Shown: positions 30,202-35,002 of the stretch, one piece after another | Position numbering within the stretch: position 1 is the stretch's first letter | How the letters are laid out: the number at the start of each line of letters is the position of its first letter | DNA from: Methanosarcina sp. DH2 | Lineage (GTDB): Archaea > Halobacteriota > Methanosarcinia > Methanosarcinales > Methanosarcinaceae | Length of the DNA stretch: 64,000 nucleotides | Assembly: GCF_020804225.1 (NCBI RefSeq) | Contig: NZ_WJBI01000001.1 | Coordinates: 247,773 to 311,772 of the forward strand | Direction: 5' to 3' | The notes under the pieces: generated by a model | Told to the model about the DNA's origin: nothing | Database searches by the model: none | The model's input: the letters and a program-made list of their open reading frames with translations, nothing else | Made by a program: the position numbers and the translations under genes

Positions 30202-30612
30202 TTACTGTACTTTTTTCTTTATTGTACTTCTTTTGCTCTGGGTCTTATTTCCTGTCACTCTAAAGGTTGTCAGAAACGGGCGTTTGACTGGAAGGGTAAT
30301 GTCCTCTCTTTCGATGTAAAGTTCAACTGCTTCTTTCAGATTTGAAACTGCTTCTTCAATTGTTTTTCCCTGACTTGATATCTCCAGCTCCAGGCATGAG
30401 GATACGTATCGCTCGTTCTTCTTTTGCACCATTGCAGAAAATGTAAACGTTTCTGTCATTTCTGTCATATCTGTCATATCTTTCATACCTGCCATATCTT
30501 TCACACTTGCCATATCATACCTGCTATCTTTTTGTGATATTGCAATGTTTGTGTTAAATATTTTGCAATTAATTGTTTTTTGGATAGATGAAAGTTTAAC
30601 TTGTGTTCTCAT
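30202..30612 (-). CDS. HicB-like protein (UPF0150) with repeated N-terminal start codons
   Basis: The conserved part is residues 52-115: FTFSAMVQKKNERYVSSC, then GKTIEEAVSNLKEAVELYIE, the compact HicB beta-alpha fold. HicB proteins usually act as antitoxins to HicA RNases, but no HicA is encoded next door, so this may be an orphan. The N-terminus is a degenerate 9-18-bp repeat coding for DMASVKDMAGMKDMTDMTEM, with six in-frame ATG codons. HicB proteins normally begin just before FTFSA, so ATG 30459 (85 residues) is the likeliest start; the longer form remains possible. The short spacer 30187-30236 contains a repeated tactgtactt motif at the 3' end. Confidence 0.65.
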   Translation of the reverse strand: MRTQVKLSSIQKTINCKIFNTNIAISQKDSRYDMASVKDMAGMKDMTDMTEMTETFTFSAMVQKKNERYVSSCLELEISSQGKTIEEAVSNLKEAVELYIEREDITLPVKRPFLTTFRVTGNKTQSKRSTIKKKVQ

Positions 30613-32394: not shown

Positions 32395-33246
32395 ATGAAA
32401 AAGTTAAATATAAAACCCCTAATAAAACTTTTAAGTATTTCTATAATTCTGTTGCTGACCGCTTCGGCGGCTTCTGCTGCCTGTTCGTACCATTCTGGAA
32501 AATACTGCTATAAGCATTATACTAATTGTGAATGGGATTATAATCAGTATTCAGACTGGAATTGCAAAAATTGTAACTCTGGAGAAAGTACTGAATCTGG
32601 AAATTATAACCAGTATCCAGACTGGAACTGCAATGATTGTAATTCTGAAGGACCTAGCGACTCTGGATCTACTGACTCTGGAAACACTGATTCTGGAAAC
32701 GCTGATTCTGGAAACGCCGATTCTGGAAACGCCGATTCTGGAAACGCCGATTCTGAAAATGCCGTCCCCCCTGTCACCCCAACAGATGCAACCGGAACAA
32801 CTACTATTGAGTTATGTAGAGATAATACTTGCACAGTTGGAGGAAATGGGCAAGTCCTAACCCTTACAAACTATAACAATGCAGTAAACCCTACCTATGA
32901 CCAGCTCTTAATGTTTTTGGAAGCTGACAAGACCGATGAACTACCCTATACTTCAACATATGTTTGCAGTGACTTTGCAAAAGCCCTTCATGACAATTCA
33001 GAAGCTGCGGGTATAAAAGCCGGTTGGGTCGGTGCAATCGGAGCTAATCACGCGTTCAACGTTTTTGAAACGACTGACAAGGGAACTGTGTATATAGATT
33101 GTACGGGTGTGCCTGGAGGAGCGACACTTCAGGATAAGCAACTGGATGTGGTAATTGGTCAGCCTTTGAGTGGAAAGTATCTGTTCAGACAGGGAACAAT
33201 TAATGGCATGGGAGGAACTGTTACAAGTTTATTAGTTTATTGGTAA
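32395..33246 (+). CDS. Secreted transglutaminase-like cysteine protein with DSGNA repeats
   Basis: A 283-residue exported protein. The signal peptide (1-28) has a hydrophobic core SISIILLLTASAASA. Residues 29-85 are Cys-rich and contain a duplicated unit (YNQYSDWNCKNCNS and YNQYPDWNCNDCNS). Residues 93-122 are five-residue repeats (SGNTD/SGNAD), encoded by a 15-bp tandem repeat. The C-terminal domain (about 145-283) carries Cys191 in YVCSDFAKAL, His219 in NHAFNVF and Asp235 in YIDCTG, the order and spacing of a transglutaminase-like Cys-His-Asp triad. It may cleave or cross-link surface proteins. The family is not one I can name, so the catalytic call is inference from three residues and fold pattern. 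Confidence 0.7.
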   Translation: MKKLNIKPLIKLLSISIILLLTASAASAACSYHSGKYCYKHYTNCEWDYNQYSDWNCKNCNSGESTESGNYNQYPDWNCNDCNSEGPSDSGSTDSGNTDSGNADSGNADSGNADSGNADSENAVPPVTPTDATGTTTIELCRDNTCTVGGNGQVLTLTNYNNAVNPTYDQLLMFLEADKTDELPYTSTYVCSDFAKALHDNSEAAGIKAGWVGAIGANHAFNVFETTDKGTVYIDCTGVPGGATLQDKQLDVVIGQPLSGKYLFRQGTINGMGGTVTSLLVYW

Positions 33247-33364: not shown

Positions 33365-33556
33365 TTAGTAATAAACAATTTTCGAAAATCCACTGGACAG
33401 TTCTTCTCCCAGAATTTTTTCTACCTCTTTTTTCAGGTTTTCAATGGCTTCTTCAACAGTTTTTCCTTTACAAATTACATCCGCTTCCGGGCAGATTGAA
33501 ACATAGGAATTCTCTTCCTTCTAGATGGTCGCAGAAAAAGGAAACCATATCGTCAT
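33365..33556 (-). CDS. HicB-like gene with an in-frame UAG codon (possible pyrrolysine)
   Basis: The frame begins MTIWFPFSATI, meets TAG at 33521-33523, and continues without another stop as KEENSYVSICPEADVICKG and then KTVEEAIENLKKEVEKILG to TAA at 33365-33367 (63 residues if UAG is read). It aligns through its length with the intact HicB-like gene at 30202-30612 (FTFSAMVQKKNERYVSS); the UAG falls at the Q of MVQ. Methanosarcina can insert pyrrolysine at UAG, so a full protein is possible. Otherwise only 11 residues are made and the gene is a pseudogene. No HicA partner is visible. Confidence 0.7.
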
Positions 33557-33739
33557 ATCCTGAAATATTATTCAGTCCATTTTAAGCGTTTCGTATCCCT
33601 TTATTCTATTTTACTCTCACCAGCCGTTATTCAGGAGGTAGCATATGCGAGCGCAGGAAATTTATACTTGCGAACATATCACATCCGAAGTTTATATTAA
33701 TAGAATCTCGAAACTTACGTTAACAGGCTTGCAGGATTT

Positions 33740-35002
33740 ATGGTAGCAGAGTCTTTAATAACCTCTTTTGTGTCTTCGCCCGACCTTTCGGTGCTTATCC
33801 TCCTTGGTGTTCTCCTACTGACCGCTCTGAGGCAGGTAGGGTCTTTGAGGCTCCAGATCTGGCAGGTTATGACCCTTGGGGCTTTCTCTGTACTGCTGCT
33901 TGGAGAGATCTCGCCCCAGGAGGCTCTCCGGGCAATTAACATGGATGTGCTCCTTTTTCTGTTCGGGGCTTTTTGTGTGGGCGAAGCGCTTAACAGGAGC
34001 GGATATCTTGCCTGTCTTGGGAGCAAGATTGTTTCAAGGGCTAAAAATACGGATCAGCTAGTTTTGCTTGTGGTTTTTTCTACCGGGCTCCTTTCTGCAG
34101 TCCTTATGAACGACACCCTTGCCATTATGGGCACTCCAATGGTTCTGCGTTTTTCCAGGAAATACGGCGTATCTTCGAAACTCATGCTCTTTGCCCTGGC
34201 TTTCGGAATTACCACAGGCAGCGTCATGAGCCCTATTGGAAACCCCCAGAATCTCCTGATTGCAATTGACGGAAATCTGGACTCCCCGTTTGTGACATTT
34301 TTGCGCTCTCTGGCTCTGCCAACTCTTATAAACCTTGTACTTGCTTACGTCGTACTCAGGCTCTTTTTCAGCCGGGAATTCGGGAAATCAGCTCTGGTTC
34401 ATTCTAAGGAGGTTATTTCCGACCCTGAACTTGCAGGAATTTCAAAAAAGGCTCTTTTCCTTCTGCTGGCTCTCATCACCTGTAAGATCTTTCTTGTAGA
34501 GTTTTTGCCTGCCTGGGACTTCAGTTTGAGCTGGATTGCCCTGCTCTCAGCTTCTCCTATACTTCTAAGCAAAAGGTGCACTGAAGTTGTAAAGAATATT
34601 GACTGGACAACTCTGATCTTTTTCGTTTCGATGTTCGTGCTGATGGAAAGTGTCTGGATTTCCGGGACCTGCCAGGAGCTTCTCAGCAGAATGTCTCCGC
34701 AGTTAGGCTCGGTTCCTATGATCCTGGCACTTAGCATAGGACTCAGCCAGCTTATTTCTAATGTTCCCTTTGTTGCGCTCTACCTTCCTGCAATGGGGAG
34801 TGCAGTTTCTCAAGAACAGTTGATGGCACTTGCTGCTGGAAGTACAATTGCAGGGAATCTCCTTATCCTGGGGGCAGCTAGCAATGTCATAATCCTCCAG
34901 AATGCAGAAAAAGAAGGTGAAACGTTTTCTTTTATAGAATTCGCCAGAATTGGACTCCTAATATCATTTTTAGATGCGATTGTTTATTTTATATTCCTTT
35001 AA
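33740..35002 (+). CDS. ArsB/NhaD-type ion permease (SLC13-like superfamily)
   Basis: A 420-residue integral membrane protein with about eleven helices. The two re-entrant-type motifs of this superfamily are visible: MNDTLAIMGTPM in the first half with SPIGNPQNLLIA just after it, and SNVPFVALYLPAM in the second half. ArsB, NhaD and divalent anion transporters share these. Candidate substrates are arsenite, Na+/H+ or a dicarboxylate; neighbours give no help (no arsA or arsR here). Encoded alone. Confidence 0.78.
   Translation: MVAESLITSFVSSPDLSVLILLGVLLLTALRQVGSLRLQIWQVMTLGAFSVLLLGEISPQEALRAINMDVLLFLFGAFCVGEALNRSGYLACLGSKIVSRAKNTDQLVLLVVFSTGLLSAVLMNDTLAIMGTPMVLRFSRKYGVSSKLMLFALAFGITTGSVMSPIGNPQNLLIAIDGNLDSPFVTFLRSLALPTLINLVLAYVVLRLFFSREFGKSALVHSKEVISDPELAGISKKALFLLLALITCKIFLVEFLPAWDFSLSWIALLSASPILLSKRCTEVVKNIDWTTLIFFVSMFVLMESVWISGTCQELLSRMSPQLGSVPMILALSIGLSQLISNVPFVALYLPAMGSAVSQEQLMALAAGSTIAGNLLILGAASNVIILQNAEKEGETFSFIEFARIGLLISFLDAIVYFIFL

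Follow-up and report, generated by a model that had tools for sequence, protein, structure and literature searches.

A probably recent, lineage-private amber codon in a small orphan HicB-like gene of Methanosarcina

In archaea that decode UAG as pyrrolysine (Pyl), a reading frame interrupted by a single TAG may belong to a Pyl protein or to a gene that is being lost. This question is raised by a HicB-like gene found in the window, i.e., the whole stretch of 64,000 nucleotides analysed here from Methanosarcina sp. DH2. From comparison with its orthologues, it is highly probable that a recent, lineage-private amber change has occurred in a small, transcription-ready and dispensable orphan gene, being either read in part as Pyl or a first step of loss. 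The gene and its codon are located as follows.

33365-33556, minus strand: gene of predicted HicB/UPF0150 fold, 63 codons, from ATG at 33556 to TAA at 33367-33365, with TAG as codon 12; assigned by orthologue alignment and predicted fold
33521-33523, minus strand: in-frame TAG (UAG), residue 12; a sense codon in 23/23 orthologues

Translation of the minus strand from 33556 to 33365 yields MTIWFPFSATI, the TAG, KEENSYVSICPEADVICKGKTVEEAIENLKKEVEKILGEELSSGFSKIVYY and the terminal TAA, the TAG being the sole interruption of an otherwise clean frame. The coordinates of the TAG and the intact flanking frame had been correctly given in a preliminary description of the locus, to which the strand is added here. 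Downstream of the TAG, no in-frame ATG, GTG or TTG was found in the rest of the gene, so that re-initiation past the UAG is ruled out and only the 11-residue product would be made if UAG terminates. The gene contains no N bases and lies on a contig of 917 kb, and no further high-identity copy of it was detected.

The window's genome (G000), which is of Methanosarcina type and comprises 4.6 Mb in 37 contigs, encodes tRNA-Pyl with anticodon CTA (pylT; CUA), pylS as an uninterrupted full-length frame (485 aa), and methyltransferase genes with internal TAG, namely mtmB and two mttB copies. Since the host possesses all these elements, UAG need not end every polypeptide and can in principle be decoded as Pyl, in support of the earlier statement that the codon need not end the protein.

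A survey of 30 genomes of the genus recovered 23 orthologues beyond the window copy, with alignments spanning 59-63 of 63 residues at 71-87% identity (E down to 7e-34). Because the orthologues align over its length, the frame is not due to chance, and the named matches to the gene (76-86% identity) all come from Methanosarcina. None of the 23 orthologues carries a stop at position 12, where Arg (12 orthologues), Leu (5), Met (2), His (2), Cys (1) and Val (1) are found, and this column is one of the three most variable among the 63. The UAG, whose conservation the preliminary description had proposed to check, is replaced by a sense codon in every orthologue, at a very variable position; together with absent transcription at the locus, such sense codons had been named there as evidence against a Pyl protein, and this finding corresponds to one half of that pair. 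As sense codons are found throughout the 23 orthologues, the UAG is private to the lineage of the window, whose species is represented by one genome, a second strain of the same species not having been found. The UAG sits at a site accepting many residues. In G003, G013, G041 and G007, codon 12 is CGG, two base changes from TAG.

An AlphaFold model built from seven orthologues (pLDDT 81.6) predicted a beta-beta-beta-alpha-beta arrangement, with strands at residues 8-13, 18-22 and 27-31, a helix at 34-49 and a final strand at 59-62, residue 12 being placed at the end of strand 1, adjoining the turn. Foldseek matched this model to 2yzt (TM 0.68) and 3k6q (TM 0.65-0.67), with E values of only about 0.02, and VIA-align gave Z scores of 5.8-6.7 to 3k6q, 2yzt and 6g1c over 51-63 residues, these structures being a Thermus protein (2yzt), a Syntrophomonas antitoxin (3k6q) and a Burkholderia HicB (6g1c). 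The HicB N-terminal (partial dsRBD-like) fold is thus present in the predicted model, which aligns with these HicB/UPF0150 structures. However, the window protein differs from HicB antitoxins in having 63 aa without the DNA-binding extension, in lacking a nearby HicA, and in scoring 15.5-18.9 bits against Pfam PF21748 (UPF0150), under the cut-off of 27.3; a sequence search of the PDB with the 63-aa protein returned nothing meaningful. No hicA was found beside the gene, and the only two hicA matches of G000 lie on contigs C19 and C26, away from the window; since both are on other contigs, the gene is regarded as an orphan. Its divergent neighbour serves as context only:

33740-35002, plus strand: CitMHS-type transporter

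The other neighbours encode a UroD-family protein and a secreted-looking protein without a Pfam family, and no methylamine or pyl genes were found among them. The secreted-looking protein (window 32395-33246; 283 aa) lacks any Pfam match and contains DSGNADSGN repeats.

With respect to selection, dN/dS between the window copy and each relative ranged from 0.07 to 0.21, compared with 0.10-0.29 for pairs of intact relatives. Private base differences were counted within a five-genome group, and the window copy showed 4 synonymous and 4 nonsynonymous changes, the corresponding ratios in the other members being 0:2, 2:1, 5:3 and 1:3. By this count there is no clear acceleration of the window copy, since it does not have clearly more private changes than its relatives. 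One of its private changes, F48I, replaces a residue that is invariant across the 23 orthologues, which may be a hint of relaxed constraint. Upstream of the gene, a conserved segment was recognized:

33557-33596, minus strand: conserved 40-nt promoter segment with a BRE/TATA-like CGAAA...CTTAAAA of archaeal type

The TATA-like element begins about 29 nt upstream of the ATG, and the 40 nt differ by 2 mismatches from G013 and by 4 from G003, which themselves differ by 2, the 20 nt beyond this segment being diverged. Because of the dN/dS values, the private changes and this upstream conservation, the gene either still functions or did so until a short time ago. The clean frame is equally compatible with a very recent null mutation and with a Pyl codon that is tolerated.

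Loss of the gene was observed elsewhere in the genus. In G002, which is near-complete, the 5' part is deleted and a C-terminal remnant is left, and no orthologue was found in the near-complete G042, where the paralogue alone was matched. Taken together, the gene appears to be conserved but dispensable within the genus. The orthologue of G041 (G041:C1:3674922-3675098; genome near-complete) has a one-base deletion between the ATG and the frame, as well as an altered promoter, and this copy represents an independent decay.

The gene has a paralogue in the window:

30202-30612, minus strand: HicB-like paralogue without in-frame stop; its G013 orthologue has a TAG instead

An end-to-end alignment of the two had been claimed, but of the 63 residues only 1-50 are matched (46% identity), the ORF of the paralogue being 136 aa long. 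This ORF includes about 46 additional N-terminal residues, and a start at MTETFTFSAM suits its relatives better. In G013 (5,751,492 bp), the reverse of the window was observed, with the 63-aa gene intact and a TAG replacing the Gln of ISSQGKT in the neighbouring HicB-like gene (G013:C1:5368814-5368963), which is the counterpart of 30202-30612 by position and sequence. In a HicB-like copy of G044 (G044:C17:44722-44865), a TAG replaces the Trp of YVSWCPEL, and the next ORF overlaps its end. About 130 HicB-like matches were obtained in the genus, and the other interrupted copies were one of G020 with a TAA and one of G011 with several stops, so that three single TAGs stand against one single TAA, an excess that is not significant. 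The TAGs of G013 and G044 fall on conserved residues, as expected of ordinary nonsense mutations. It is hardly credible that amber codons recur in Methanosarcina HicB-like paralogues (window, G013, G044) as a result of small orphan regulators tolerating Pyl, with levels answering pyrrolysine supply.

To assess the tolerance of the genome to in-frame stops, sequence from G000 (about 0.84 Mb) was compared reciprocally with sequence from G013 (about 1.16 Mb), each direction providing about 115,000 aligned codons and the whole covering 395 conserved ORFs in G000 and 381 in G013; without filtering, this comparison was dominated by shadow ORFs. Frames were interrupted by 1 TAG, 3 TAA and 1 TGA in G000, the TAG being that of the 63-codon gene, and by 1 TAG, 4 TAA and 5 TGA in G013, several of the non-TAG interruptions being near the 5' end, where they may precede the true start. 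For instance, a TGA at C25:191745 lies before the core of a protein that we take to be SerB-like from its motif. A general amber tolerance was rejected, as TAG interruptions are not enriched over TAA or TGA in this comparison with one relative and small counts. A structured element following the UAG was likewise rejected, the minimum free energy of the downstream RNA being ordinary (z -0.24, against -0.97 in the intact G013 copy). The suggestion that the level of the HicB-type protein follows Pyl supply thus gained no support, either from RNA structure downstream of the UAG or from TAG enrichment in conserved ORFs.

From these data, a course of events can be proposed in which codon 12, placed where strand 1 is about to end and where substitutions are tolerated, probably drifted from an Arg codon; the nearest relatives have CGG, two base changes away. 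Given mRNA and pyrrolysine, a cell producing Pyl-tRNA(CUA) would by default be expected to make some full-length protein with Pyl at residue 12, and read-through would compete with release after 11 residues. Such a state would be neutral, as in the Thg1 of M. acetivorans, or could just as well mark the onset of gene loss. We infer that read-through would be partial, the state neutral and the amber change recent, and a still-made, Pyl-tolerated protein and an effectively dead gene stand at about equal odds.

A plain pseudogene, in which the UAG stops translation at 11 residues and the remainder is decaying, though so far free of further damage, is possible, at somewhat less than an even chance. 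This orphan gene has been repeatedly broken or lost within the genus, single stops (TAG or TAA) stand at conserved residues of other HicB-like copies, F48I falls in an invariant column, and TAG is not enriched relative to TAA and TGA, all of which agree with simple decay. However, the promoter is intact, no indel is present and protein constraint resembles that of intact relatives; additionally, the column that holds the TAG varies greatly, so that Pyl would be tolerated there, and UAG is leaky in Methanosarcina (PMC2933860).

At the other extreme, an evolved Pyl-dependent protein, whose level or function tracks pyrrolysine supply, is very improbable. Although the Pyl machinery is encoded in the genome and the TAG lies within an otherwise conserved frame, UAG occurs in 0/23 orthologues and no residue is conserved at position 12, the downstream RNA structure is ordinary, and the neighbours (CitMHS transporter, UroD-family and secreted-looking proteins) are not methylamine or pyl genes. 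Since nothing indicates that the gene evolved to need pyrrolysine, an ordinary recent mutation is most likely. A sequencing or assembly error at a sense codon, e.g., CAG or TGG, would be compatible with a draft of 37 contigs whose mtmB, with N bases and a broken frame, points to imperfect assembly in repeats; yet the long contig, the gene free of N and the lack of a high-identity second copy make such an error improbable. Moreover, two bases separate TAG from the CGG found in the nearest relatives, and a single miscall would thus presuppose an earlier real change. In the mtmB itself (G000:C26:449276-450623), a frame break near N bases divides the gene, which probably reflects a repeat that collapsed during assembly.

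In the methylamine methyltransferases MtmB, MtbB and MttB, each family retains its UAG, which has a catalytic role. The window gene resembles them in carrying an in-frame UAG within a Pyl-decoding archaeon, whereas its own UAG is confined to one lineage and occupies a variable residue. A nearer likeness is offered by Thg1, whose UAG, according to Heinemann 2009 as related in PMC2933860, is found in M. acetivorans only and is translatable as Pyl, with Pyl being dispensable for activity. As far as that account goes, both cases share an amber in one Methanosarcina species, sense codons in orthologues and a site without need of Pyl, but for Thg1 it was demonstrated that the UAG can be translated as Pyl, whereas the window case is known from sequence and concerns a dispensable 63-aa orphan. 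M. acetivorans also puts Pyl at an amber codon introduced into a reporter, and the stop of pylB is UAG in some species (PMC2933860). Neutral evolution of amber codons has been discussed, along with annotated in-frame-UAG genes lacking conservation (PMC3639795). The recent amber change preferred here adds at most one testable case to neutral, Thg1-like pyrrolysine acquisition, located at a naturally permissive position of a gene whose loss the genus tolerates, and it cautions that a clean TAG-interrupted Methanosarcina frame is not automatically a Pyl protein. As a terminator, TAG is rare but real, ending 16 of the 395 conserved ORFs of G000 and 11 of the 381 of G013.
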